From: Pseudomonas bubulae
Lineage (GTDB): Bacteria; Pseudomonadota; Gammaproteobacteria; Pseudomonadales; Pseudomonadaceae
Assembly: GCF_900618535.1 (NCBI RefSeq)
Contig: NZ_UYJA01000001.1
Location: 682,001-746,000, forward strand
Direction of reading: 5' to 3'
Length of the DNA: 64,000 nucleotides
Of the stretch, positions 7,412 to 54,293 are shown piece by piece (the first letter of the stretch is position 1; the number at the start of each line of letters is the position of its first letter). A program made the position numbers and the translations under genes. The notes below the pieces were generated by a model that saw nothing but the letters and a program-made list of their open reading frames with translations, was not told the origin of the DNA and did no database searches.

Positions 7412-9541
7412 ATGACAAAATACCCTCAGTTACTGGCACCCGGTCGCATAGGTTCTCTTGAACTGCGCAACCGCATCATCATGGCGCCCATGGGCTCCAA
7501 CTTCGCCGAGGCCAATGGCCAGTGTGGCGAGCGCATTCAGGCCTATTACGAAGCCCGCGCCCGTGGCGGCGCCGGGCTATTGATCATGGGGGTGTGCTCG
7601 GTGGCGTTTCCGGCCGGGACCGCCGAGCCATTCCAGGTCGGCGTTTCCAGCGATGAGTTTATCCCCGGTTTGAGCCGACTCGCCGAGCGCGTCCACCAGC
7701 ACGGCGCAAAAATTGCCATGCAGTTGCAGCACGCCGGCAAGACGGCAGTGCGCGACATGGCCGAAGGCCGGCAACTATGGGTGCCCTCGGTGCCGCCGGT
7801 GCTGCAAAGCGACATGATGGCCGCGCTGACGCCCGAAGAACTGGCCAACTTTGTCAGCTCCATGAAGCGTCGCGCCGAAGGCTCACCGATCCGTGTAATG
7901 GACAGCGCCGATATCGCGCAGATGATCGAGTGGTTTGCCAGTGCCGCCGACCGCGCCAGGCGAGCGGGTTTCGACGGTGTGGAAATCCATGCGGCCCACG
8001 GCTACATCATCGCCGGTTTCCTCTCCGGCTATTACAACCAGCGTGAAGACGAGTACGGCGGCTCGCTGGAGAACCGTGCCCGGCTGCTGCTGCAAATCAT
8101 CGCTGCAATACGGGCCAAAGTCGGCCATGAATTTGCCGTATGGCTGCGCCTGGATGCCGAAGAACTGCACACCCCCGGCGGCAGCAATCTTGAAGATGCC
8201 ATCGCCGTGGCACGCATGGCCGAGGCGGCAGGTGTAGATGCGGTCAGCGTTTCGGCCACTGCGCGCATCACCAGCGGCGTGGTGTTTACCGAGGCGCCAC
8301 TGGTGCACAAGCCCGGGGGGTATCTGGAATGGACCGCTGCGCTCAAGCGTAGCGTGCAAGTCCCGGTGATTGCCGTGGGGCGGATCGAGCCGGAGGTCGG
8401 TGAAGCCGCCCTCAAGCGCGGCGACTGCGACTTCATTGCCATGGCCCGCAAGTTCCTCGCCGACCCGGACCTGCCCAACAAATTGCTCAACGACCAGGAA
8501 GCGAGTATCCGCCCGTGCATTTACTGCTACGTGTGCGTGAGCCAGATTTTTATCAACGAGCGGGTCAAATGCGCGGTCAACCCCATGACCGGCCATGAGT
8601 TCGAATACGTCATCGGCCCCACTGCCACACCCAAGCATCTGGTGGTGGTGGGAGCCGGGCCTGCCGGGATGGAAGCCGCACGCATCGCCGCGTTACGCGG
8701 CCATCGCGTGACCCTGCTCGAGCGCAGCGACCGCCTCGGTGGCACGTTGTTTTTCGCCGGCCTCGCCTATGCCGAAAACGCCCGCCTGCTGGAAAATCTC
8801 AAGGTGCAGGTGCAGCAGTCGGCGATTGATATCCGCCTCAACACCCTGGCCAGCCCTGCCCTGCTGCGCGACCTGGGTGCCGATCAGGTGCTGGTGGCCG
8901 TAGGTGCAGAACGTGCTGCACCGGCCATCCCCGGCGCCGATCAGGACCATGTCTGGAGTGGCGACGAACTGCGCCGTTTGATGACGGGTGACCGTGCTGA
9001 AGAAATAGCCAAACGCAAACTGTCCTTCACCCAGCGTGCACTGATGAAGGCCGGCAGCCTGACTGGCGTGACTGATAGCCGTGAAGCCATGGAAAAACTG
9101 TCGCGGGTGTGGATGCCGCTGGGCAAGCGCGTGACCATTATCGGTGGCGGCCTGGTAGGCCTGGAGCTGGCGGAATTTTTGATTGCCCGCGGACGTCAGG
9201 TCACCGTACTGGAAAGCGGTACTCACCTGGGCCGGGAGCTGGCCATTGTGCGGCGCTGGCGGGTGCTGCATGAAATTCGTGTGCATGGCGGCGAGTTGAT
9301 CACCGGGGCCAGCGTTACGGCGATCGACGGCCACAGCGTGCGCTATCAACTGGCCGATGGCACTTCGGCGCAGAGTGACGCCGACTCCGTGGTACTTGCC
9401 ATCGGCGCCCAGCCCGATACCGGACTGCTCGACGAACTGACCCGAGCGGGGTTGAGCGCCAGCAGCATCGGCGACTGCCACAGTATCGGCTATATCGAAG
9501 GCGCAATCAGCGCCGGGCACAAAGCCGGACGCGAGGCCTAG
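7412..9541 (+). CDS. FMN/4Fe-4S/FAD enoate reductase (2,4-dienoyl-CoA reductase / BaiCD-like)
   Basis: A 709-residue three-domain flavoprotein. The OYE-like barrel fills residues 1-365, with [13 protein letters not shown] marking the active site. The iron-sulfur cysteines are C369, C372, C375 and C387. This C-x2-C-x2-C-x11-C spacing is one residue shorter than in E. coli FadH and nearer the trimethylamine-dehydrogenase pattern. An FAD site (VVVGAGPAG) lies near 410 and an NAD(P) site (IIGGGLVG) near 575. Such enzymes reduce conjugated double bonds in dienoyl-CoA or dehydro-bile-acid-CoA substrates. A 76-base gap follows the hydrolase; the ribosome site is weak. A REP pair follows. Confidence 0.9.
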
Positions 9542-41893: not shown

Positions 41894-42095
41894 GCGCCAG
41901 CACGATGCTGCTCTACTCGTAATCATAATCGGTCACCAGAAATACCACCGCGACTGACGCAACGCTAAGAAAGGTCTGACTGTATTGATTCGGGATAAAA
42001 GTAGAATCTCAGGCAAGGAGTGAATCGCCCTCACAGTGACAGGAGTCAGGCGTCAGATGGCGGCCCGACGTCACTTGCCAATCGCAGGAGACAAT

Positions 42096-42473
42096 ATGAA
42101 ATCATCCATTACCCTTTACGACGCGCTGACATCCATCAGTATGCCTTCAGGTAAAACTAAAGCCGTTGTCGAAGCCTGGGAGAATGAAGTGAAAGATCTC
42201 GCCTCCAAATCAGACCTGGGGCAAACCGAACGGCACCTGAAAGCCTCCATTTCAGAATTGGGCGCTGAACTGCGCGTTCTGATAAGGGAGCAAGGTGTAG
42301 AGCTCAGGTCATCCGTCAAGGAACAAGGCCTCGAACTGCGCTCGTCAATTACTGCGCTGGAGGCCCAGGGCAAGATTGTTCACTGGCAGTTCGGCATCAT
42401 CTTCATTTGCATCAGCGTGCCATCGATCAAATTGGGATATGACTTTCTCAACAGGGCTTTACTGGGGGAGTAA
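42096..42473 (+). CDS. Coiled-coil, tail-anchored membrane protein of unknown function
   Basis: A 125-residue protein. The N-terminal soluble part (LYDALTSI) is followed by a coiled coil with imperfect repeats (AELRVLIREQGVELRSSVKEQGLELRSS in part, residues about 55-85) and one C-terminal membrane helix (IIFICISVPSIKLGYDFL). This resembles DUF1640/CCDC90-type coiled-coil membrane proteins. ATG 42096 with GGAG is preferred to the start 20 codons upstream. It stands alone downstream of the shikimate transporter. Confidence 0.75.
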   Translation: MKSSITLYDALTSISMPSGKTKAVVEAWENEVKDLASKSDLGQTERHLKASISELGAELRVLIREQGVELRSSVKEQGLELRSSITALEAQGKIVHWQFGIIFICISVPSIKLGYDFLNRALLGE

Positions 42474-42715: not shown

Positions 42716-43900
42716 TCACCCGTCGATAAACACCTTCAGAGGCGGTTCGTGCATCAGGAAGTTCTGGTGCGAGATATTCCAGGCATAGGCACCCGCCAGG
42801 CTAAACACCAGCAGGTCACCAATCGCCAGTTGCGCAACAGGTTGCTGCCTGGCCAGCACATCCTTGGGCGTGCACAACTGGCCTACCAGGGTGACGTCCT
42901 GACCGCTTATCTGCGGGGGATTTGTGCCCCGCATAACCGTGAACGGATGGTTATGGTCTTGCGCTGCAGGCGTGCGAAAATGATGAGTGCCGCCTCGACC
43001 AATGGCAAAAAATTCGCCGTGGCTGCTTTTGATATCCAGCACCTGCATGACGTAATAGCCGCAGGCTGCGCTGATAAAGCGACCAATTTCGAAGCGGATT
43101 CGGGTCGCGCCCATGCCGAACTCATCAACCAGCCCCTTGAGCCCCTGACAAAACCTTGGCCAGTCGAACGACTGCGCCGGGTTCTGGTAGTTGATGCCCA
43201 TGCCGCCTCCGACATTCAGCACGGGCAGTTGCAGGTCGTGGTCGACACACAACTGGCGGAAAGTCAGGAAGTAGCTGCGTATCAACGCAAGGTGCGCATC
43301 GACATCCAGCTGGTGTGACAGCATATGAAAGTGCAGCCCCTTGAGCTCCAGAGACGGCTCTTCGCGCAACAATTGCAGTGCACTTGCCAGCCCCTGCTCG
43401 TCCAGCCCGAACGGCGTGGGCTTGCCGCCCATGACCAGCCTGCTCTGCGGTGCCTGCGTCAGCTTGAGGTTCAAGCGCAACATCAGCGCAGCCCTCACGC
43501 CACGCTGGCGAGCGATGCGCGCCAGACTGCGAAGCTCGGTCACGCTCTCTACATGAAACGCCGAGACGCTGTACTGCATGGCGATATCCAGTTCACGATC
43601 AAGCTTGCCCGGGCCGCCAAAGATCAGTGGCTCGTCGGGGCACTGCTCATGCAGCCAGGCCAGCTCCCCGCCCGAGGCCGCTTCGAAACCGTCTACCCAC
43701 GGTGCAAGGGTTTTCAACACCCGCGCCTCCGGGTTGGCCTTGGCGGCATAGAACAATTCGCAGTTATCGGGCAGCACCTCGCGCATTGCCTTTATATGCT
43801 GTTCAAGGGCAAGCAAGTCGTAGACATAGGCACACAATGGCCCCTCGTGTTCAGCCTTGAGCTGATCGATACAGCGGGTGACAGCGACAGGAAGAGTCAT
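42716..43900 (-). CDS. pvsE: Siderophore PLP-dependent decarboxylase (PvsE)
   Basis: A 394-residue type III-fold PLP decarboxylase related to diaminopimelate/ornithine decarboxylases and to SbnH/AcsE. K54 (FYAAKANPE) binds PLP, GGGMGI is the phosphate-binding loop, and a C-terminal CTPKDVL holds the conserved Cys-x3-Asp. In vibrioferrin synthesis PvsE makes the ethanolamine part by removing CO2 from the seryl intermediate. The start ATG overlaps the pvsD TGA (ATGA). Last gene of the leftward operon. Assignment rests on family plus full pvsABCDE order. Confidence 0.88.
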   Translation of the reverse strand: MTLPVAVTRCIDQLKAEHEGPLCAYVYDLLALEQHIKAMREVLPDNCELFYAAKANPEARVLKTLAPWVDGFEAASGGELAWLHEQCPDEPLIFGGPGKLDRELDIAMQYSVSAFHVESVTELRSLARIARQRGVRAALMLRLNLKLTQAPQSRLVMGGKPTPFGLDEQGLASALQLLREEPSLELKGLHFHMLSHQLDVDAHLALIRSYFLTFRQLCVDHDLQLPVLNVGGGMGINYQNPAQSFDWPRFCQGLKGLVDEFGMGATRIRFEIGRFISAACGYYVMQVLDIKSSHGEFFAIGRGGTHHFRTPAAQDHNHPFTVMRGTNPPQISGQDVTLVGQLCTPKDVLARQQPVAQLAIGDLLVFSLAGAYAWNISHQNFLMHEPPLKVFIDG

Positions 43901-45657
43901 GCGCACTTACTCTTTGCAATAAACGCCAATGGGCTGGGCAGCTGGGTGTAACCTGCCTCGCGATCGGCGCGCATCATCAGACGGGTCATAAAGTTTTCCT
44001 TGCCGGGGAATGGCGCACCGGCGCACAACTCGCGCAGCTGCTGCGGATGACCGAGAAACGCGCACTGTTCGTGCAACAGCTCGCCGGTGCGCGTCCACAA
44101 CTGTTGTTCCAGAGCATCGCTACCATTGGCCAGATGAAAAATCGCCTCACCCAGATTATTCACCAGCGCACAGTAAGCCACCCGCTGCCAGGCCTTTTGC
44201 GCGCTGTAGTACACCGAGTTGCGGGTACGCTCGTCGAGCGCGCTCAAGCGTTCTGCCGGCCAGATTTCAGGAACCAGCTTGGTGCCCTCCAGATCGCGGA
44301 TCCACACCCGGTTCGGCAAGCCGTCCTGAGCAAAGCCGACAACCGTGTTTTGTAAATGCGGCTCCAGCGCCACCCCCTGACGGAACAGGCAGTGCAGCAC
44401 GCCGCCGAGCATTTTCGCGGCATAGGCATCCAGCCAGTTGAGCGTGGCCTGCTCAATGCCCAGGCCGGTGATGTCGGCATAACGTCGAACCTGGTGACGA
44501 CAGACACTGCGACCTTGCAAGTCCCAGGTAAACAGCGCCATTGCCACCTGCGGCTGATACGCCCCGCGATCGGCCATGGACAGGTTTTCCCGGTAAACGA
44601 TACCGAAGCATTCGGTGACTTCGCGGGCCTGCTCCAGCGTACCCAAAGCACCGAGATCAAGGCTGGAGGCTGCGGGCTCGGGCATCAGCAAAAAGCCCGG
44701 TTGCCGGATTGCCAGCTCGCTCATGACCGGCCGGAGCAGATGAGTCAGGGCAACGGCACTGTCCAGCTCATACCAGGCATTCTTGCGTACGCAATTGGTC
44801 AGCCGCACATGCATCGAGAACTTCATGAAATAAGCCAGTTGCGGGTGGTAGAGCGTACGCACCGACGAGGTCGGGAACATGGCCTGACCCAGAGGGCCGA
44901 GGTATTCGATCAGACCCTGCTGTTGCGCCCGCTGCACCAGCGGATCGGCCAGTATGCGGGCGACTTCCCAGGGGTGACACGGATAGGCGTCGTCGCGCCC
45001 CGACAGTTGCTGCAGGGTACTGCGCGGGTCCTCACCCTGATGGCGAAACAGCGCCGGGTCGATCTTGAACCAGTGCAACTGAAAACACGCCCCAACCTCA
45101 GGCGAGCAGGCCAGCAAATCGTTATGGGAAATACCTTCGCGGCTTTTCGGTGTCGGGTGCAGGGCATGCCCCCAGAGCTGATGCTGCTCGGATGCGAGCA
45201 GGCTGTCGGCAGCTTCGTTGGCCGGACGGGAATGACGCAAAAAGGCCCGGGTGATCTGCAGGCTGTTGGCGAACTGTTGCAGCATCTCGCCGACACGCCC
45301 GGCACCGCTCAGTGGCGTACACAGAAGGCTGGCCAGTTCCCGGGCCTCCAGTGGCCGCCAGCCCTGCTGGTTGCCCTTGAAATAAGGCGCGCCGATGTAA
45401 TGACAGCGGCCCAACAGGCTGGCGCTGTCGATGCGCACCACCAAACGGCCGCCCGGCAGGTTGATGCTGATGCAACGAGCGCCGGCCTGACGCAGGCTCA
45501 TCGGCACATCCTGTGCCTGGTAGTTCAGATCGGCTTCGTTGCGCGGCAATGCATATTCGCGCAAATAGCAATTGAGCAGGCACTCGATGGCATGGCGCTG
45601 GGCTTCACCATCAAGGGCATGGTCATTCAGGGACAAGGTATTGGGAACGAACGTCAT
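43897..45657 (-). CDS. pvsD: NIS siderophore synthetase PvsD (IucA/IucC family)
   Basis: A 586-residue NRPS-independent siderophore synthetase, joining a carboxylic acid to an amine or alcohol via an acyl-adenylate. Visible conserved parts are SVRTLYHPQ, KFSMHVRLTNCVRKN, YPCHPWEV, and EPHLQNTVVGF, then a FhuF-like C-terminal region. In vibrioferrin synthesis PvsD joins citrate to L-serine. The frame is open for 49 more codons, but ATG 45657 overlaps the pvsC stop as ATGA, which decides it. Confidence 0.9.
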   Translation of the reverse strand: MTFVPNTLSLNDHALDGEAQRHAIECLLNCYLREYALPRNEADLNYQAQDVPMSLRQAGARCISINLPGGRLVVRIDSASLLGRCHYIGAPYFKGNQQGWRPLEARELASLLCTPLSGAGRVGEMLQQFANSLQITRAFLRHSRPANEAADSLLASEQHQLWGHALHPTPKSREGISHNDLLACSPEVGACFQLHWFKIDPALFRHQGEDPRSTLQQLSGRDDAYPCHPWEVARILADPLVQRAQQQGLIEYLGPLGQAMFPTSSVRTLYHPQLAYFMKFSMHVRLTNCVRKNAWYELDSAVALTHLLRPVMSELAIRQPGFLLMPEPAASSLDLGALGTLEQAREVTECFGIVYRENLSMADRGAYQPQVAMALFTWDLQGRSVCRHQVRRYADITGLGIEQATLNWLDAYAAKMLGGVLHCLFRQGVALEPHLQNTVVGFAQDGLPNRVWIRDLEGTKLVPEIWPAERLSALDERTRNSVYYSAQKAWQRVAYCALVNNLGEAIFHLANGSDALEQQLWTRTGELLHEQCAFLGHPQQLRELCAGAPFPGKENFMTRLMMRADREAGYTQLPSPLAFIAKSKCA

Positions 45658-46796
45658 GCCGGAATCTCCCGGGAAGTGATCATTAGAGGGCGCGCCATGA
45701 CCATGGCGGCCATGGCAGCCAGGCAGGCAACCAGAAAGGGGGATGCAATGCCGCAGGTCTGAGTGACCAGAGCAGCCGTAACACCGGCAGCGGTACCGGC
45801 CCATTTGCCGCTGGAGTCAAACCAGCCGAACAGGCGCCCTGCACTGCCTTGCCGGCTGCGCTGACTAAGGCAGCGGTGCAGCCCGACAAAGCTGAGCAGC
45901 ATGCCCGCGCCACTGAGCAGACGCAGGGCGAACAACGGCTCTGCCTGCACGCTCCAGAATTGCAGCGCATTGCTGATCGCCAGCAGCGCCAGCCCCGGCA
46001 ACAGGACGTTGCCCTGATACTTGTGGACCCAGGGCAAGGCCAGCAGATAAACCAAATGCGGCAGGCTGTAGAGCACACCGATCAAGGTGTCGTTACCTAT
46101 CCCCAATTGTTCACCGTATGGCATGAAGTAGGGAAAGGTGACCACCATGGCGAAGCTGAACAGAAACTGCACCGCCAGCAGGCGCGCCATGTCGGCTGGC
46201 AGTTGGCCTGGCGGCGGTTTTTGTTTGCGGTCCAGGGCATGCCCGGGCTTGTCGTTGGGCAGTGCCAACACCAGAACAAAAGCCAGCAGCGGCAACCACG
46301 CCAGCCAGCTGTAAAGGTTGATGCCCAAGCCCCGGGAGGTCAGCAGCCCCAGCAGGATCGGGCCGCTGATCATTGCCAGCCGTGCCGAATACTGAGTCCA
46401 GTTCAGGGCGCGGGACAGCCCGGAGCCCTTGAGCTGGGTCGACAGGTAGGCGTTGGAGGCCGCCATTGCTCCGCCGAAGGTGCCCTGGATAACCAATGCC
46501 AGCACGAACACGGTCAGATTGGGGCTCAAGCCTGCCAGCAGAAAACCCGCGAACAACCCGGCATGGGCGCGCAGCAACGACAGACGACAACCGTTGCGAT
46601 CGGCCCAGCGCCCCCATACTGGCGCGGCCAGGGCGGTGCACAGGGTTGGCAGGACAAACAGCACGCCGATGGCCCATCCCGGCGTGCCGGGCGCGAGGTC
46701 GCCCAGGATGCGCGGTAGATAGAGCGGAATCCCCAGCGCCGTAAAGGCCGACAGGTAATGCCCCAACAAGACGCTGGCGATTAAACGGCGCTGCAT
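45654..46796 (-). CDS. pvsC: MFS siderophore exporter PvsC
   Basis: A 380-residue MFS protein with about 12 helices and loop 2-3 motif GRWADRNGCRLSLLRAH. In Vibrio the product exports vibrioferrin. It sits between the two NIS synthetases as in Vibrio parahaemolyticus. Its start overlaps the pvsB end by 16 bases, and its stop overlaps the pvsD start. The length is short for MFS (usual 400 or more), normal for PvsC. Confidence 0.88.
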   Translation of the reverse strand: MQRRLIASVLLGHYLSAFTALGIPLYLPRILGDLAPGTPGWAIGVLFVLPTLCTALAAPVWGRWADRNGCRLSLLRAHAGLFAGFLLAGLSPNLTVFVLALVIQGTFGGAMAASNAYLSTQLKGSGLSRALNWTQYSARLAMISGPILLGLLTSRGLGINLYSWLAWLPLLAFVLVLALPNDKPGHALDRKQKPPPGQLPADMARLLAVQFLFSFAMVVTFPYFMPYGEQLGIGNDTLIGVLYSLPHLVYLLALPWVHKYQGNVLLPGLALLAISNALQFWSVQAEPLFALRLLSGAGMLLSFVGLHRCLSQRSRQGSAGRLFGWFDSSGKWAGTAAGVTAALVTQTCGIASPFLVACLAAMAAMVMARPLMITSREIPA

Positions 46797-48562
46797 GGCA
46801 CCTCCTCCAGCAGGAAATTCGCCGCGCTGTAGCCATAGAACTTGTTGATATCACTGGCACCGGAATGCGCCTTGCTGAACAGGCTGCCGGCGCTGAGCAG
46901 GTACTTGACCGGCAACCTTGGGCTGTCGAGCAACCAGCGGCGTGCGTCGTCACAGTTGATGCCTTCGGCTTCGAGTTGCTGCAGACAACCGCTCAAGCGC
47001 CGGCGCAGTGTGTCGTACAGGCTGGCTTGAGGCGCCAGCCCCGCTGCCGCAATGGCCTGCAAAATAGCGACGATATTCAGTTGCAGGGTGATGGTGCAGA
47101 ACATCTCGGCCAAAGGCTGACTGCTGTTGACACGAATGCGCTCATCCTGCAAGGCGGCTGGCAGCCCGGCCAGATCCGCACAAGCTGCAGCGAAACGTTG
47201 CGGCCAAAGGCGCGCGGCGTCGTTGTCCTTCATCAACAGGCGCATTGGCCGGCCGTGTTCGAATATCAGCACGGCGTTCTGCTGGTTGGCCTCAAGCGCG
47301 ATGCCGTATCGCAGCCACAGCCGTAGATGAACCTGCAGTAACAGGTCAAGGTAGTCGTCGAGCCAGTGTTGCAGGGAGCCGGCATAAAAACCCTCGACCA
47401 GCTGTTCGAGGAACAGGCGCCCACCCGCAAGAGGGCTGGCCAGTGCAGCCACCGGCACCAGTGTGGTGTGCTCCAGCCCCGCCGGATAGCGGCGCACGAT
47501 ATAGGCCAGATGACGGCTTTGGGCGACATGACCGCCGTGTTGTTCATCTACGTGCAAATAGCGTGATCCCAACTCCGGATCTCGCCTGGCGAGCGCCTGC
47601 AAGGTGGTTTCAAACCAGTGGCCGTCGTACAGGGTGGTCGGTTTGATCAGACGCAGATTGCGCGCGCCCAGGGTAGTGACCAGCAACGGTAATTTGATAT
47701 GCCAATGGGGCTGATCAATGCACACCACCGTACGCACGGACAGCGTCGGCTCAACCTGCATGGCCGTGTGTGGCGCCTTGAGTGCGCCCTCAGGCAAGCC
47801 ATACTGTTCAAGCACAGCCCAGGTCAACGGATGCACCGGCAGCAGTGAGTGGCTGTTGTGCAAAGTGCCTGGCAAGCCTACTTCCTCGAAACCCGGCCAG
47901 TGCGGCGGCTGCACACTGGTGAGGGTCATGGCCTGCTTGGGGATCGCCAGCCAGTTGAGTTCGAAACGCGGTGCAAACTCCGGCGCATAGCGTTCAAGGG
48001 CTGCGCCATCGAAGCCGCTTTTGGCCCGTGCAGTCGGGTAGTACGGGTGGTCCAGATAGCTGGCCAGCTGGTCAATCTTCAACAGGCGCTGCGACCAGTG
48101 CTGGAGCCCGATCACATCGCCGAGCGCGGCGGCATTGCGTTGACCGGCCTGCTTGCACAGGGTCCGGTGTTGCGTGGCGCAATCGGCCTCTTTCAGATAC
48201 GCCTCGAACAACCCCAGGCTTTCAGCGTCCAGACCCTGGCTCAGGTGGCCAAGCCAGAGCGAGTAGCCACGCTGGACCTCAGGCGGGTGCTGTCGCGATA
48301 CCCGGATCCAGGCATCGCCGGTAACACTCCAATCCTGCAACGGATACGCCTTGACCACTGGCAGCCACAACTCGTCAGCCGCCAGATCGGTGATCCGCAG
48401 CCAGATGCCGCTGGATTGATGCGCAAGCAGCTGATGCAACGCCTCGGGCAGCGGACAGATCCGGCCCTGACTGACAACTCCGCGGATATCTTCACGCAGG
48501 CAGCAATCGATGATGCGGCGGGTGATGTAGGCCTGATCGGCAGCTTCTGGTTGCAGGTTCAT
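46781..48562 (-). CDS. pvsB: NIS siderophore synthetase PvsB (IucA/IucC family)
   Basis: A 593-residue NRPS-independent synthetase. Marker stretches are LLPVHPLTWAVL, TLSVRTVVCIDQPHWHIKLPL in part, GARNLRLIKPTTLYDG and ALEANQQNAVLIFEHG. In vibrioferrin assembly PvsB joins the alanine/2-oxoglutarate part to the citryl-ethanolamine part. ATG 48562 shares bases with the pvsA TGA (ATGA). Four more N-terminal codons are in frame but overlap pvsA further. Second of two NIS enzymes; achromobactin-type clusters would have three. Confidence 0.9.
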   Translation of the reverse strand: MNLQPEAADQAYITRRIIDCCLREDIRGVVSQGRICPLPEALHQLLAHQSSGIWLRITDLAADELWLPVVKAYPLQDWSVTGDAWIRVSRQHPPEVQRGYSLWLGHLSQGLDAESLGLFEAYLKEADCATQHRTLCKQAGQRNAAALGDVIGLQHWSQRLLKIDQLASYLDHPYYPTARAKSGFDGAALERYAPEFAPRFELNWLAIPKQAMTLTSVQPPHWPGFEEVGLPGTLHNSHSLLPVHPLTWAVLEQYGLPEGALKAPHTAMQVEPTLSVRTVVCIDQPHWHIKLPLLVTTLGARNLRLIKPTTLYDGHWFETTLQALARRDPELGSRYLHVDEQHGGHVAQSRHLAYIVRRYPAGLEHTTLVPVAALASPLAGGRLFLEQLVEGFYAGSLQHWLDDYLDLLLQVHLRLWLRYGIALEANQQNAVLIFEHGRPMRLLMKDNDAARLWPQRFAAACADLAGLPAALQDERIRVNSSQPLAEMFCTITLQLNIVAILQAIAAAGLAPQASLYDTLRRRLSGCLQQLEAEGINCDDARRWLLDSPRLPVKYLLSAGSLFSKAHSGASDINKFYGYSAANFLLEEVPCSAV

Positions 48563-49758
48563 GCCACCACCCATTTCAGGTCGTTGAGGGTCGAATGCAA
48601 TTGCGCATCCAGGCTCACGTCATCCGGGGCAATCAGGCGCAATACGCCGACGTAGTCCTTGTTGGAGTGGCTGATGGTCACCGTGTCGCCGGGATGTTGC
48701 AGCGCCCGGTAATCGCACCAGTGGCCTGCGGATTCGACATTGAAACTGGCGCTGGCCTGATCCAGCCGCCCCGAACGCTCGGCCACCAGATAGTGCACGG
48801 TTGCCTGGGCCCGAGCCGGTTGTGCGTCGACCAGCGCCTGCCCCAGATGCAGGGCAACGATTCGGTCAAACCAGCCCTGTGGCAGCAGCCGGTCCAGCAA
48901 AAACTCGCGGCCGTCACCGATACTGCGATAGTTGATCTCGACCAGCACCGGGCCTTGTGCGGTGAGGATGAATTCGCTGTGACAAACGCCAAAATTGACC
49001 CCGAATGCCGCCACTTGCGCCAGCGCCGCGGTACGCTGTGCGCTGCTTAGCGGGCCATTCCAGCGGGCAGCGAGTTCGACAAAATGGGGCGGCGCAGAAA
49101 GGCTTACGTCAAAGCCGCCAATGGCTTGCAGGCCACGACCGTCACCGAGGGTCTCAAGGGTGAACAGTGGCCCTTCCAGGTAAGCCTCCAGCAGCAGTGC
49201 ACGGTCCGGTTGCTGCTCCCAGAACCGTTCACAGTAAGCACTCAGTTCAGCGGCGTTGTGACACAAGCGCACGTCCAGGCTGGCCACCCCTTCACGGGGC
49301 TTGGCCACCACTGGCCATGGCGCATCAGCAGGCAACGCGCAGCCCGAGGCAAGCACCTGGAACCACGGCCCGGGCAGACCCAGACGCTGCATGCGCTCAC
49401 GCATGGCGGCCTTGTTCTTGGCGGCATGGCACAACCGCCAGTTCTTGCCGGGGCACTCGAACGCCTCCGCCACGACTGCTGTCGCGGTTTGCAGGTGATC
49501 GCTGTTGGAAAATACGGCAACCGGGCGCAAACCCTGGCCATTGAGGGTTTCGATGACCGCCAGCGGGTTGAATACATCACATTCGATCACCTGCAGCCGG
49601 TCCGGCGAAAGAGACGAGCCGGCAAGCAGGCGACGATGTTCCTGAGCATGATCGGTGATCAGCACAATTGGCAGCCCGCGCTGCTGCGCGGCTGGCATAA
49701 AGCCCTCGAGAATGGCTGGGTGTGTGACGTGAGCAAGGATGACGAATGGACGTTGCAT
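48559..49758 (-). CDS. pvsA: ATP-grasp ligase PvsA
   Basis: A 399-residue ATP-grasp enzyme, thought to join L-alanine with 2-oxoglutarate in vibrioferrin. Seen are the ATP-binding loop region (WPVVAKPREGVASLDVRLC in part), LLLEAYLEGPLFTLETLG and the metal-binding VLVEINYRSIG with the Glu-Ile-Asn triad of ATP-grasp enzymes. AGGAAAG sits 6 bases before ATG 49758. A 74-base gap with a strong hairpin separates it from the upstream receptor. Confidence 0.88.
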   Translation of the reverse strand: MQRPFVILAHVTHPAILEGFMPAAQQRGLPIVLITDHAQEHRRLLAGSSLSPDRLQVIECDVFNPLAVIETLNGQGLRPVAVFSNSDHLQTATAVVAEAFECPGKNWRLCHAAKNKAAMRERMQRLGLPGPWFQVLASGCALPADAPWPVVAKPREGVASLDVRLCHNAAELSAYCERFWEQQPDRALLLEAYLEGPLFTLETLGDGRGLQAIGGFDVSLSAPPHFVELAARWNGPLSSAQRTAALAQVAAFGVNFGVCHSEFILTAQGPVLVEINYRSIGDGREFLLDRLLPQGWFDRIVALHLGQALVDAQPARAQATVHYLVAERSGRLDQASASFNVESAGHWCDYRALQHPGDTVTISHSNKDYVGVLRLIAPDDVSLDAQLHSTLNDLKWVVA

Positions 49759-49777
49759 GGCACTTTCCTGGGGGCAA

Positions 49778-49807
49778 CAGTTGCCCGTCCCGCAGGATGG
49801 GCAACTG
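49778..49807 (-). promoter_or_regulatory. Intercistronic hairpin between receptor and pvsA
   Basis: Perfect 9-base stem cagttgccc / gggcaactg around a 12-base loop, 20 bases before the pvsA start, with no T-run. It could stabilise the receptor mRNA or reduce read-through into the biosynthetic genes. Confidence 0.55.
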
Positions 49808-49832
49808 ATTTACAAAAGCGCGTGTGCGCGGT

Positions 49833-51938
49833 TTAGAAGCGGTAATTGACGCCTAAGGTGAGCGAACGCTCTGGCGCGGGTTGACGACCCCAAGGGCTGG
49901 TGTCGATACCTCGGAAATAGTATTCGCGGTTGAACAGGTTACTGATGCCCGCCGAGGCGGTCAGGATGCTCTTGTCGGCCAGCGGGAACTCACGTTCGAT
50001 AGCCGTGTTCCACACCCAGTAAGAAGGCAGTTCACCCACGCTGGCAGAGGCGTTTTCTTCGCGGGTATTGGCAGCGTCGGTGTAGGCCTTGCTGATGTAA
50101 AGACCGTCGAGGTTGTAGGTCCAGTGCTCGGCAAAACGGTAGCGGGCATCCACCATAAACTGGTTTCGCGAGGAGTACGGCACTTCGTTGTCTTTGTAAG
50201 TGCCGTTGCGTTGTTTGGCATCGAGGTAGGCATAACCGGCATGCAGGTCCAGATCACGCATGGCCTGCGGGGTCCAGAAAATATCGGTCTCGAAACCCTG
50301 ATGACGTGTGCTGCCAAGGTTGTCGAAACGGTCGGTGGTAGCGTTGTAGACAATCTGGTCATCAAAGTCGATGCGGTACAGGTTGAAGTCGACACGCATG
50401 CCCTCCCACGGGGTGTAACGCACACCGGTCTCGTAGTTCCAGGCCAGCTCGGCACCGACCGCGCCTTCCTTGACGATCTGCGTAACCTGAGGTGGACGCA
50501 GGGACTTCTGCGCGTTGGCATAGACATACCAGGCGTCGTTGGCCTGGTAACCCACGGTCAGGCCCGGCAGCCATTCTTCAGACTTGTTCTCGCGCTCGAA
50601 CCCGGTGATGCCATCGCTGTAGTTCATGCGCGCGTTTTCATAGCGCGCGCCGGGGGTGATGGTCAGGCGATGATCAAGCAGGCTGATGGCGTTGCTGATG
50701 TAGAAGGCACGGGCGCTGTCATCGAATTTCCAGTCGCGAAACGGTGCAGTCACACCCGTAGCCAGACTCTGCCGGTTGACCTTGTAACTGATGTCTTCGC
50801 TGACATAGCGGGCACCGAGTAGCCAGGTCTGGCCGACGGTGTCGCCATCGATGGTGGCGCTGATGCGCGGCTCCGAACCCCAAACCTTGAAGTCACGCGG
50901 GCCGTCCTGCTTGGTCACGGCCGTACCGTCCGGAGTGAACGGCAGGCCTACGACGAAATTGCGGTAGCTGTTGTGGGCAAAGTTGGTCCAGCTGAACTCC
51001 ACCGAATCGAACGGCCCCATGGCGCCAAGACGCTGGGTGTAAGTGCCCCACACACGATCCGTGTCACCCTCGAAGCGGTCCAGCGGGCGCGTTGACTGAC
51101 GCGGGTCGTCCTTGTAGTCCTTGACGCTGAGGGCTCCGGCCAGGTCCATGTCGGCCTTGTAATGCTGAACGCCGAAACTCAGATCCCGGTCATCATCGAT
51201 GTTCCATTGGCCGCGCAGGCGGTAGTTCTGCACATCGGTATCAGAGTGTTCGCGCCCGTATTCGCCGCTCAGGGTATTGATGTCCAGTTGCAGCCCGAAG
51301 TTGTCGGTCAGGTAGCCGCCGGTGCCCAGATAGGTATCCCACAACTGGCGCCCGCCAGCATTGAACGTGGTTTTCTCCTGCAGGGTGGTTTCCCATTCGC
51401 GGGGAATCGGCTTGCTGATGAAGTTGATCACCCCGCCGACGTTGTTTGGACCGTATTGCACCGCTGCGCCCCCGCGCACGATATCAACCCGGTCGACCGT
51501 GGCCATGGTCATTGGGAACAGCGACAGGCCGGTCTGGCCGTAGGGTGCCAACGCGAGCGGGATGCCGTCCGACAAGGCCTGGATGCGTCCGCTGCGGCTC
51601 TCGTACAGCCCACGTACCGAAATCTGGGGCAGCGCACCGGTGCCGGTCTCGTCGAAAATCTTGATGCCCGGAACCCGTTGCAGCGCATCATCCAGGCCAC
51701 GGGTGCTGGCTTTTTTCAGGTCGCTGGAATCGATGACGCTGCGACTCCCGGCATAGGTACGCACTTCCTGATCGCTGGCGGCACCCAGTACATCGCCCTC
51801 AATCGTCATGGGCGCCAGCTCAACGCTATGGCCGGGGGGTTGTTGATCGGCGGCCATGGCAGCCTGGCAAATACCCAGTGTCATGAGGCTCAGTGAAAAG
51901 TGTAGGGATATTGTTTTCATTGGACTACGTCGACTCAT
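49833..51938 (-). CDS. pvuA: TonB-dependent ferric-siderophore receptor
   Basis: A 701-residue outer-membrane receptor with signal peptide (ending AAMAADQQ), plug domain (residues about 50-180; DALQRVPGIKIFDETG, VDRVDIVRGGAAVQYGPNNVGGVINFI in part) and 22-stranded barrel ending NREYYFRGIDTSPWGRQPAPERSLTLGVNYRF in part. It has no N-terminal signalling (STN) domain, unlike the FecA-like receptor at 58.6 kb. Similar plug sequences occur in FecA and the vibrioferrin receptors PuvA/PsuA. The start overlaps the stop of the preceding gene (TAATG); a second ATG is six codons in. The ligand, ferric vibrioferrin, is inferred from the operon. Confidence 0.82.
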   Translation of the reverse strand: MSRRSPMKTISLHFSLSLMTLGICQAAMAADQQPPGHSVELAPMTIEGDVLGAASDQEVRTYAGSRSVIDSSDLKKASTRGLDDALQRVPGIKIFDETGTGALPQISVRGLYESRSGRIQALSDGIPLALAPYGQTGLSLFPMTMATVDRVDIVRGGAAVQYGPNNVGGVINFISKPIPREWETTLQEKTTFNAGGRQLWDTYLGTGGYLTDNFGLQLDINTLSGEYGREHSDTDVQNYRLRGQWNIDDDRDLSFGVQHYKADMDLAGALSVKDYKDDPRQSTRPLDRFEGDTDRVWGTYTQRLGAMGPFDSVEFSWTNFAHNSYRNFVVGLPFTPDGTAVTKQDGPRDFKVWGSEPRISATIDGDTVGQTWLLGARYVSEDISYKVNRQSLATGVTAPFRDWKFDDSARAFYISNAISLLDHRLTITPGARYENARMNYSDGITGFERENKSEEWLPGLTVGYQANDAWYVYANAQKSLRPPQVTQIVKEGAVGAELAWNYETGVRYTPWEGMRVDFNLYRIDFDDQIVYNATTDRFDNLGSTRHQGFETDIFWTPQAMRDLDLHAGYAYLDAKQRNGTYKDNEVPYSSRNQFMVDARYRFAEHWTYNLDGLYISKAYTDAANTREENASASVGELPSYWVWNTAIEREFPLADKSILTASAGISNLFNREYYFRGIDTSPWGRQPAPERSLTLGVNYRF

Positions 51939-52705
51939 TATTGCTGTTGGAGAGAATGCAGGCGGGCTTTGAGGGCGTTATGCAGCAAGCCACGGTCTTC
52001 ACCGGCCAGAAAACTGCGCACGCCGCGGGCGCGCCATAGCGCGTTCTGTTCGACGGTGCGAGGGTTGGCGCAAAAAGCGACGCCGGCGCCAAGACAGGCG
52101 TCGGCCATGCCTTGCAGGGTTTGCCAGACCCGAGGATTGAGAGGATCAGGCCCCAGGCCGAGATCGAGGGCCAGGTCCAGGGCGCCTTCCATGATCATGC
52201 CGACCCCGTCCAGTTGCAGGATGTCGCCCAGCGCGTCAACACCGGCGCGGCTTTCGATCATGGGAATAATGGGGGTCTGGCGGTTGGCCAGATCGATGTA
52301 TTCGGGCAGTGGCAGGCGACCGAAGCCGGTGATGCGCCCACCGGTCATGCCGCGCTTGCCCAGGGGCGGAAAAAAGGCCGCCTCAATGGCGCGCTGAACC
52401 TGTACGGCGCTTTCGGTGCGTGACAGCACGATGGCTTCGATACCGGCGTCCAGCGCCCTGCCGATCAATTTCTCGTCCACTTGCGCCATGCGCAGCCAGG
52501 GCGAAATACCTGCGGCCTCACATGCCCGAACGCAATGCATGATGTCTTCTTCGGAGCGCAGCAAGTGCTCCAGATCAAGAATTACAAAGTCGTAGCCGGC
52601 AAACGCGAGCATCTCGCAAAGCATGGGTGAAGGCAGGGAATTGAGCATGCCGTAAACAACTTTCCCGTCTTGTAGCCGGGAAAAAACCGGAGAAGTTTTT
52701 ATCAC
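51938..52705 (-). CDS. SbnG-like citrate synthase (HpcH/HpaI aldolase family)
   Basis: A 255-residue protein of the HpcH/HpaI aldolase family, the family of SbnG, which makes citrate from oxaloacetate and acetyl-CoA for staphyloferrin B, and of AcsB in achromobactin clusters. Putative metal ligands are E151 (PMIESRAG) and D177 (EGALDLALDLG), with R72 (WLRMAQ). The position numbers match those I recall for SbnG. The frame opens at 52753, but the Fur-box-like site covers that ATG, so I chose GTG 52705, which has AAAGGA 9 bases upstream. First gene of the operon. Role: dedicated citrate supply for vibrioferrin (inferred). Confidence 0.78.
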   Translation of the reverse strand: MIKTSPVFSRLQDGKVVYGMLNSLPSPMLCEMLAFAGYDFVILDLEHLLRSEEDIMHCVRACEAAGISPWLRMAQVDEKLIGRALDAGIEAIVLSRTESAVQVQRAIEAAFFPPLGKRGMTGGRITGFGRLPLPEYIDLANRQTPIIPMIESRAGVDALGDILQLDGVGMIMEGALDLALDLGLGPDPLNPRVWQTLQGMADACLGAGVAFCANPRTVEQNALWRARGVRSFLAGEDRGLLHNALKARLHSLQQQ

Positions 52706-52738
52706 TGACACAGGTCCTTTTAGCGAGGCAGCACTGGC

Positions 52739-52757
52739 GCCAATAATAATCATTCTC
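52739..52757 (-). promoter_or_regulatory. Fur-box-like operator
   Basis: The leftward strand reads GAGAATGATTATTATTGGC. This matches the 19-base Fur consensus at 14 positions. It lies 34-52 bases before the chosen GTG start of the siderophore operon, where iron-dependent repression would be expected. Confidence 0.65.
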
Positions 52758-52864
52758 AGATATAGGTAAACGATTTTTATTACCGAATAGCGATATTCGT
52801 GACGAACATCTTAAAAAAAACGTTTCAGGTTGTAGGAAAATGGCCATAAGCCATTGTTTTGCTG

Positions 52865-52955: not shown

Positions 52956-53031
52956 TGGCTCCACGACCTGGACTCGAACCAGGGACCCAATGATTAACAG
53001 TCATTTGCTCTACCAACTGAGCTATCGCGGA
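52956..53031 (-). tRNA. tRNA-Asn (anticodon GTT)
   Basis: The leftward 76-base sequence folds as a cloverleaf. The acceptor stem is TCCGCGA / TCGTGGA (one G-U pair), the D-loop GCTCAGTTGGTAGAGC, the anticodon loop CTGTTAA (anticodon GTT), the T-loop GGTTCGAGTCC, and CCA is encoded. Its 5' end lies between tyrB and the siderophore operon. No duplicated 3' end or integrase gene is present in this window. Confidence 0.95.
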
Positions 53032-53096: not shown

Positions 53097-54293
53097 TCAG
53101 ATGACCTGAACAATGGCGTCGGTTACCGCCTCAATGTTGCGCTGGTTCAAAGAAGCCACGCAGATTCGGCCGGTATCAAGGGCATAAATACCGAATTCGG
53201 TACGCAGACGCGTTACTTGTTCAACGGTCAGACCGGAGTACGAGAACATGCCACGCTGACGTGCAACAAAGCTTAAGTCATGCCCAGGAGCCTTTTTCGA
53301 CAGCAGCTCAACCATTTGCAGACGCATGCCACGAATGCGCAGGCGCATTTCTGCCAGCTCGTCTTCCCACATCGCACGCAGCTCAGGGTTGTTAAGCACG
53401 GCTGCAGCAATGGTTGCACCGTGAGTCGGCGGGTTGGAGTAGTTGGTACGGATCACGCGCTTGACCTGGGACAGCACACGGGCGCTCTCTTCCTTCGATT
53501 CGGTGATGATCGACAGTGCACCGACACGCTCGCCGTACAGAGAAAACGACTTGGAGAACGAGCTGGAAACAAAGAAGCTCAGGCCCGAGCCGGCGAACAG
53601 GCGCACTGCAGCTGCGTCTTCGTCGATGCCGTCGCCAAAGCCCTGGTAGGCCATGTCCAGGAACGGGATCAGGCCTTTGGCCTTGACCACGTCCAGCACG
53701 TTCTGCCAGTCGGCCGGGGTCAGGTCGACACCGGTCGGGTTGTGGCAGCAAGCGTGCAGCACAACAATGGAGCCGGCGGGCAAGGCATTCAGATCTTCGA
53801 GCATGCCGGAACGGTTGACGTCATGGCTGGCGGCGTCGTAGTAACGGTAGTTCTGCACCGGAAAACCGGCAGCTTCAAACAGTGCACGGTGGTTTTCCCA
53901 GCTTGGATCGCTGATCGCGACTACTGCGCCTGGCTGCAGTTGCTTAAGGAAGTCAGCACCGATTTTCAGCGCGCCCGTACCGCCAACGGCTTGAGTGGTG
54001 ATCACCCGGCCAGCTGCCAGCAACGGCGACTCGGCACCGAACAACAGCTTTTGCACGGCCTGGTCGTAGGCGGCAATACCATCGATCGGCAAATAACCGC
54101 GCGACGCGTGCTGGGCAACCCGGATCGTTTCGGCTTCGACAACGGCACGCAAGAGCGGAATTCGTCCCTCTTCGTTGCAGTAAACACCAACCCCCAGGTT
54201 CACTTTGCTGGTACGGGTATCGGCGTTGAATGCTTCGTTGAGGCCCAGGATAGGATCGCGTGGTGCCATTTCGACAGCGGAGAACAGGCTCAT
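53097..54293 (-). CDS. tyrB: Aromatic/aspartate aminotransferase
   Basis: A 398-residue fold-type I aminotransferase, exchanging the amino group of aromatic amino acids or aspartate with 2-oxoglutarate. PLP-binding K248 is in SSFSKSFSLYGERVGAL, N185 (CHNPTG) and R387-region (TGRICVASLN) bind substrate carboxylates. The length and motifs fit AspC/TyrB; in P. aeruginosa the ortholog (PA3139) also borders uvrB, which supports the name. It is transcribed away from uvrB with its own promoter. Confidence 0.88.
   Translation of the reverse strand: MSLFSAVEMAPRDPILGLNEAFNADTRTSKVNLGVGVYCNEEGRIPLLRAVVEAETIRVAQHASRGYLPIDGIAAYDQAVQKLLFGAESPLLAAGRVITTQAVGGTGALKIGADFLKQLQPGAVVAISDPSWENHRALFEAAGFPVQNYRYYDAASHDVNRSGMLEDLNALPAGSIVVLHACCHNPTGVDLTPADWQNVLDVVKAKGLIPFLDMAYQGFGDGIDEDAAAVRLFAGSGLSFFVSSSFSKSFSLYGERVGALSIITESKEESARVLSQVKRVIRTNYSNPPTHGATIAAAVLNNPELRAMWEDELAEMRLRIRGMRLQMVELLSKKAPGHDLSFVARQRGMFSYSGLTVEQVTRLRTEFGIYALDTGRICVASLNQRNIEAVTDAIVQVI

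Follow-up and report, generated by a model that had tools for sequence, protein, structure and literature searches.

Why should a siderophore operon open with a gene of the HpcH/HpaI family, of a kind that is usually annotated as a catabolic aldolase? The question is raised by a stretch of 64,000 nucleotides from Pseudomonas bubulae (RefSeq assembly GCF_900618535.1, contig NZ_UYJA01000001.1, positions 682,001 to 746,000 of the forward strand), the whole of which is called the window here and gives the numbering for all coordinates. On its minus strand lies one tight run of genes (42716-52753), with the transcription order HpcH/HpaI gene (hereafter H), TonB receptor, ATP-grasp ligase, synthetase of the nonribosomal-peptide-synthetase-independent siderophore (NIS) type, major facilitator superfamily (MFS) transporter, second NIS synthetase and pyridoxal-phosphate (PLP) decarboxylase. 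This is very probably a Fur-controlled vibrioferrin operon that begins with the gene for an additional citrate synthase of the SbnG/AcsB type, dedicated to the siderophore. Such a proposal raises in turn three narrower questions: does H belong with SbnG or with the aldolases? Is its place beside the pvs genes kept beyond this genome? And what would the cell gain from it?

Identity of the HpcH/HpaI gene

The assignment of H (51938-52705, minus strand; 255 residues counted from GTG 52705) to the SbnG/AcsB clade draws on its Pfam family (HpcH_HpaI, 75 bits against a cut-off of 25), its best match in the PDB, a tree with approximately unbiased (AU) tests, a set of discriminating residues and the alignment column of its start codon. 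When the PDB was searched with the sequence, SbnG (4tv5) came first at 182.6 bits, against 97.0 for the next non-SbnG chain, and a profile search gave 292.5 against 166.3; the best match there is thus not a 4-hydroxy-2-oxo-heptanedioate aldolase, the outcome that a preliminary description of this DNA had named as speaking against its own proposal. The AlphaFold model of H (predicted local distance difference test score of 90) also retrieved SbnG 4tv5 at rank 1 in Foldseek, with a root-mean-square deviation of 1.4, and the VIA structure comparison placed it first with a Z of 33.4, against 31.3 for the next structure.

The comparison with SbnG and AcsB that the preliminary description had proposed as a check took the form of a 64-row tree. 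It separates 14 aldolases, with a support of 100/99, from 50 clade rows made up of SbnG, the presumed AcsB copies, the pvs copies and two remnants, and H groups with both namesakes. Among the clade rows, the pvs copies except that of Rhodococcus form one group (100/97). The AU test rejected a tree with the window's group placed among the GarL/RhmA rows (p 1.5e-11) and likewise one uniting it with five other aldolases (p 0.0066), in groups that were named after the tree had been seen and with two long-branched aldolases (L145 and L158) left out.

As to the residues, the SbnG-like character of H had originally been argued from R72, E151 and D177, and here only the conclusion has survived. Counted from GTG 52705, the residue numbers of H do equal those of SbnG exactly at these three positions. 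However, the three residues are invariant in 50/50 clade rows and in 14/14 aldolases alike, and they were consequently rejected as the mark of an SbnG. Fifteen other columns do separate the two groups: clade rows hold at least 10 of the clade residues and aldolases 0-2, in the set that served to choose the columns. In SbnG numbering they include M149, E173, A175, C212, A213, P215, R216 and R238, all of them present in H, whereas the aldolases carry I or V at 173 and mostly P or R at 175. These columns were then applied to 37 unseen loci, obtained from class and phylum searches in which 37 of 47 places had a locus and neighbours were read to about 1.5 kb. All five loci scoring at least 8 adjoin NIS (IucA/IucC) genes and none of the 32 scoring 5 or less does (0/32), while R72, E151 and D177 are present in 37/37; the identity of the five positive loci (40-70%) is likewise the highest or among the highest. 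A NIS cluster at L184 (G913) contains a divergent copy of H with 8/15 discriminating residues, situated between a NIS gene and a PLP decarboxylase gene; a fusion suspected there from an 868-residue open frame is actually a frame overlapping the NIS gene.

The evidence supports the assignment of H to the SbnG/AcsB clade and not to the aldolases, but some points weigh against the proposal and begin already at this level, with the way in which the AU groups were chosen. The identity between H and SbnG is only 35-36%. The structural lead is modest, since the fold is common to all class II aldolases, and the SbnG E151Q chain (223 residues aligned) came only 11th, with a Z of 30.3. Within the siderophore clade, a branching of the window's group nearest to the aldolases was not rejected (AU p 0.358), which leaves more than one branching order compatible with the data. 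By name, the best NCBIfam match is also contrary, being HpaI (TIGR02311) at 107.5 bits, below the equivalog cut-off of 368.8. That score does not discriminate, because SbnG itself, as a fragment, reaches 129 and four partial Pseudomonas aldolases reach 348, 353, 114 and 139, all below the cut-off and two of the four as low as H and SbnG; no SbnG model was matched in NCBIfam, even by SbnG. Only one further HpcH_HpaI gene was found in the genome (G000:C1:823250-823873, 101 bits). It lies outside the window, and since tblastn at the limits used matched its locus neither to the clade nor to GarL/RhmA, it counts as a distant paralogue.

Operon layout, promoter and start codon

The genes behind H support the view of a vibrioferrin-type operon with an SbnG/AcsB-clade gene inside, as had been read at the outset from the order of the protein families. 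PvsA to PvsE match a Vibrio pvs locus (L132) gene by gene, with identities of 49, 48, 43, 42 and 57% and no change of order, and the pvs locus of P. fragi F1801 at 84-95%, the DNA of the latter aligning to the window over 17 kb with 89.7% identity, so that the host is most likely close to P. fragi. The TonB-dependent siderophore receptor (49833-51938, minus strand) is PvuA/PsuA-like, with a Pfam match, a TIGR01783 score above cut-off and 47% identity to a receptor adjoining the Vibrio pvs genes. On the same strand follow the ATP-grasp ligase PvsA (48559-49758), whose Pfam ATP-grasp score is weak (26.9 bits, with the cut-off at 27) and which has 49% identity to the Vibrio ATP-grasp protein and 54% to a Pantoea homologue annotated PvsA; the NIS synthetase PvsB (46781-48574; Pfam IucA/IucC and FhuF); the MFS exporter PvsC (45654-46796; Pfam MFS); the second NIS synthetase, PvsD (43897-45657; IucA/IucC and FhuF again); and the PLP-dependent decarboxylase PvsE (42716-43906; Pfam Orn/DAP decarboxylase), the last four each with a Vibrio match as well. 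The overlapping stop and start codons described beforehand were found for H and the receptor (1 nt), A and B (16), B and C (16), C and D (4, counted from the ATG at 45657) and D and E (10), the sole non-overlapping neighbours being the receptor and pvsA, 74 nt apart.

The two IucA/IucC genes of this cluster are the only ones of the genome, in which no NRPS condensation domain was found. A pvu-type ABC (ATP-binding cassette) transporter was not seen beside the operon, no genome-wide search having been made for it. P. fragi and Azotobacter vinelandii are reported vibrioferrin producers, and the same operon layout is present in strains of both. Synteny with these species and with Vibrio makes vibrioferrin the presumable product. 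As for the surroundings, a tRNA-Asn gene (52956-53031, minus strand) lies directly upstream of the operon and before an aminotransferase gene (53097-54293), the P. fragi F1801 alignment running through the tRNA-Asn stretch, and a 145-residue open reading frame without Pfam match (42036-42473, plus strand) stands on the opposite strand just past pvsE.

The Fur-box-like site behind which the receptor gene and H had been placed is also there. It extends over 52739-52757 (minus strand), matches the 19-bp Fur consensus at 15/19 (14/19 when read on the minus strand) and is the best such match in the window, ten simulated windows having contained a mean of 0.0 sites at 15/19 and 0.4 at 14/19. Among named relatives, 29/29 have a best site of 12-16/19 around the start of H, and 23/29 one of at least 14, in a scan of 200 bp around that start for which no separate control was made. 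A σ70-like -35/-10 pair (52743-52770, minus strand; 9/12) overlaps the Fur box, although such pairs occur in the region at chance level (3 against 3.4 in shuffles). Where, then, does H begin? Apart from GTG 52705, GTG 52711 and ATG 52753 are possible starts, but the latter sits within the Fur-box-like site and ahead of the -10 element, and among the 40 further clade rows that are not gapped in the alignment column of GTG 52705, 36 have M there and 4 have V, for which reasons H probably starts at GTG 52705. This arrangement would place the operon under Fur control.

Distribution of the arrangement

The preliminary description had implied that a pvs operon with such a gene is a rarity, and this idea had to be abandoned. 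PvsD (E <= 1e-80) was found in 21/298 genomes of the genus, and the same 21 carry a copy of H, with 66-100% identity, on the PvsD contig. Beyond the genus, H is present in 69/72 complete named pvs clusters, at the head in 28, at the tail in 40 and divergently oriented in 1; complete means here genes A to E on one strand with at least 1 kb after E. Both counts reject the notion that H is special to this genome. The clusters come from the best 80 of 323 relatives, in a search seeded with a tail-type PvsA and including metagenome-assembled genomes, and they hold near-duplicates (several from Nitrotoga, Cupriavidus and Methylobacter), so that 69/72 is not to be taken as the rate of a random sample. 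The 8 of 80 loci set aside consist of one with H (L127), five ending at a contig edge and two sphingomonad loci without it. In 7 of the 28 head-type loci, H has been kept although no receptor was found between it and pvsA, and H also adjoins plasmid-borne pvs genes in Pantoea soli, Cupriavidus necator H16 (pHG1) and Rhodococcus oxybenzonivorans (pRB29). That the association is kept in spite of the differing position of H argues for a functional link rather than a chance neighbourhood.

The Rhodococcus plasmid (pRB29, 11965-20178) has an actinobacterial pvsABCDE-H order. Its H groups with an sbn-type copy from Pseudonocardia (100/96), which might reflect a recruitment of its own, although a single pvs clade including this copy was not rejected (AU p 0.266). 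Other plasmids seem to carry what is left of such loci. On that of P. mandelii JR-1 (NZ_CP005961, 12001-13600) a head-type remnant comprises a copy of H at 90% and a Fur-box-like site of 15/19, after which only residues 9-270 of 701 of the receptor sequence are present before an annotated Tn3 transposase gene. Acinetobacter soli pGFJ1 carries at 8001-8765 a divergent member of the SbnG clade that is interrupted by an in-frame stop, lies directly before a TonB receptor gene and may be what survives of a lost siderophore cluster; neither of the two plasmids has an IucA/IucC gene. Plasmid records of Streptomyces, Embleya and Nonomuraea contain a PvsA-like ATP-grasp protein (38-41%) and do not figure in the set for which an HpcH relative was matched at E <= 1e-20.

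Proposed role and its alternatives

How would the operon work? When iron is short, Fur would leave the promoter site and the whole run would be transcribed. H, a metal-dependent enzyme of the HpcH/HpaI fold, would then make citrate from oxaloacetate and acetyl-CoA, close to the NIS synthetases that use up this product, an activity attributed to H by homology with SbnG. PvsE would supply the ethanolamine, which PvsA, PvsB and PvsD would join with the other parts, while PvsC would export the siderophore and the TonB receptor would retrieve the ferric complex.

The benefit of H over the housekeeping citrate synthase GltA is a more delicate matter. In the preliminary description it was said to replace citrate that iron-requiring enzymes of the tricarboxylic acid (TCA) cycle no longer supply. 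The argument is loose, given that citrate synthase itself needs no iron and that the genome keeps three ordinary genes of the citrate synthase family (PF00285), which add to the points against the proposal. So does a statement on E. coli, where Fe-Fur reportedly represses citrate synthase and induces aconitase (PMC5550697), so that citrate should already rise under iron limitation. Taken together, these considerations make it more likely that the benefit would lie in a Fur-tied expression, or in a local supply to the synthetases, than in the replacement of an iron-dependent step.

Is H then of any consequence for the cell? The three PF00285 genes also favour the idea of a passenger gene that came along with the operon and has little effect as GltA provides enough citrate, and so does the existence of pvs clusters without it, which at the same time count against the proposal itself by indicating that H is not essential to the pathway. 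They comprise 3 of the 72 complete clusters (Massilia cavernae, Aromatoleum toluclasticum and Pseudogulbenkiania subflava), the long open reading frames beside which, inspected by eye over their first 60 residues and without a family search, do not resemble a replacement citrate synthase. Without H are also the plasmid-borne pvs loci of Vibrio sp. THAF190c and Piscirickettsia salmonis, as well as the sphingomonad loci L095 (Rhizorhapis) and L099 (Sphingomonas), which have a lone pvsA with full flanks. In these two, pvsC-, pvsB-, pvsE- and NIS-like genes are reordered on the strand opposite pvsA, perhaps as part of another type of NIS siderophore system. A passenger, however, would hardly be expected in 69/72 sampled clusters at varied positions, nor with R72, E151 and D177 intact in every one of the 50 clade rows, and this explanation is regarded as unlikely.

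Less probable still is that the enzymes of this clade supply or edit another building block common to these siderophores, or that they make an analogue of citrate. Vibrioferrin contains 2-oxoglutarate. The same holds for achromobactin and staphyloferrin B (PMC12096840), which means that three siderophore types with the gene have this second component in common, and no assay of AcsB or of the pvs copies is described in the parts of the literature examined, SbnG being the only clade member with a described enzyme activity there, a further point against the proposed role of H. Since SbnG is reported to make citrate and H has the discriminating residues of SbnG, a different product is nevertheless given little credit. 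Finally, that H is an ordinary catabolic pyruvate aldolase of the HpaI/GarL type sitting in the operon by chance, as its Pfam and NCBIfam names, the metal-site residues common to both groups and a Xanthomonas paper in which the gene at this position is described as an aldolase (PMC1790865) might suggest, was rejected on the tree, on the AU tests, which exclude H from aldolase groups that were defined once the tree was known, and on the discriminating columns, which together with the neighbourhood separate cleanly on the unseen loci, and it has hardly any probability left.

A siderophore-dedicated citrate synthase at the head of the operon therefore continues to be the preferred reading, and H looks like a standard but overlooked part of vibrioferrin-type clusters, the outcome being chiefly one of re-annotation. 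With moderate confidence it can be proposed more generally that an SbnG-type citrate synthase is a default part of vibrioferrin-type systems, Vibrio being among the exceptions, and that SbnG, AcsB and the pvs copy are one family that uncouples the supply of citrate from the TCA cycle for siderophores made of citrate and 2-oxoglutarate. If so, the "aldolase" labels (mphE/mhpE, HpcH/HpaI) would need changing in Pseudomonas, Azotobacter, Cupriavidus and probably Xanthomonas, a task for which the 15 residue columns that tell SbnG/AcsB-type genes from other HpcH/HpaI proteins should be useful. If the activity holds as well, a function would be found for a gene that mostly carries the label of a catabolic aldolase, and many iron-starved bacteria, from nitrogen fixers and methanotrophs to spoilage pseudomonads, would have a siderophore-linked source of citrate independent of the TCA cycle.

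Comparison with known systems

With Vibrio pvsABCDE the window has the gene order and the protein families in common. Unlike the window, the Vibrio plasmid locus has no HpcH/HpaI gene, and an ABC transporter and two receptors adjoin it on the opposite strand; the earlier remark that no such gene is known from the Vibrio pvs locus is true of the two plasmid records of Vibrio that were matched, one of which was examined in full. In the literature searched, no paper joins vibrioferrin with SbnG or mhpE, the wider check having covered titles and the beginnings of abstracts, with the main papers on SbnG, xanthoferrin, the X. oryzae siderophore and P. fragi vibrioferrin lying outside it.

AcsB (Psyr_2588), from the achromobactin cluster, belongs to the same clade as H, and its presumed copies adjoin IucA/IucC genes too. 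It differs in serving another siderophore, and the presumed Pseudomonas copies are 37-42% identical to H; of 30 Pseudomonas places within this range, 11 were examined and 11/11 adjoin NIS genes. The names given to it diverge, AcsB being listed as an HpcH/HpaI aldolase in P. syringae B728a (PMC3329529) and as a predicted SbnG in the achromobactin cluster of P. agarici (PMC7696170). In the xss (xanthoferrin) locus of Xanthomonas, an "aldolase" gene (mphE/mhpE) with a Fur box occupies the same place as H. Dyella and Xanthomonas are kin, and a place of mphE in the SbnG/AcsB clade is suggested by the Dyella relatives (56-61%). In a 2007 paper, XCC3049 (mphE, "4-hydroxy-2-oxovalerate aldolase") has a Fur box of 14/19 situated 41 bp before its start, and the next-numbered gene, XCC3050, is the receptor of a pvs-like cluster (PMC1790865).

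SbnG, from the staphyloferrin B cluster, resembles H in its fold, its clade, its discriminating and its metal- and substrate-binding residues and its setting in a NIS siderophore operon, apart from the distance in sequence already given and from the position of H, which comes first and before the receptor in a vibrioferrin-type operon. SbnG makes citrate from oxaloacetate and acetyl-CoA (PMC7139808, PMC12096840) and, in a Staphylococcus aureus citZ citB mutant subjected to iron chelation, citrate was detectable only if SbnG was present (PMC11315280). According to one review, SbnG takes the place of CitZ only in part where the other staphyloferrin is concerned, and the routing of its citrate to staphyloferrin B is raised there as a question (PMC7139808), with which a local supply of citrate to the synthetases, as proposed here for H, would fit.

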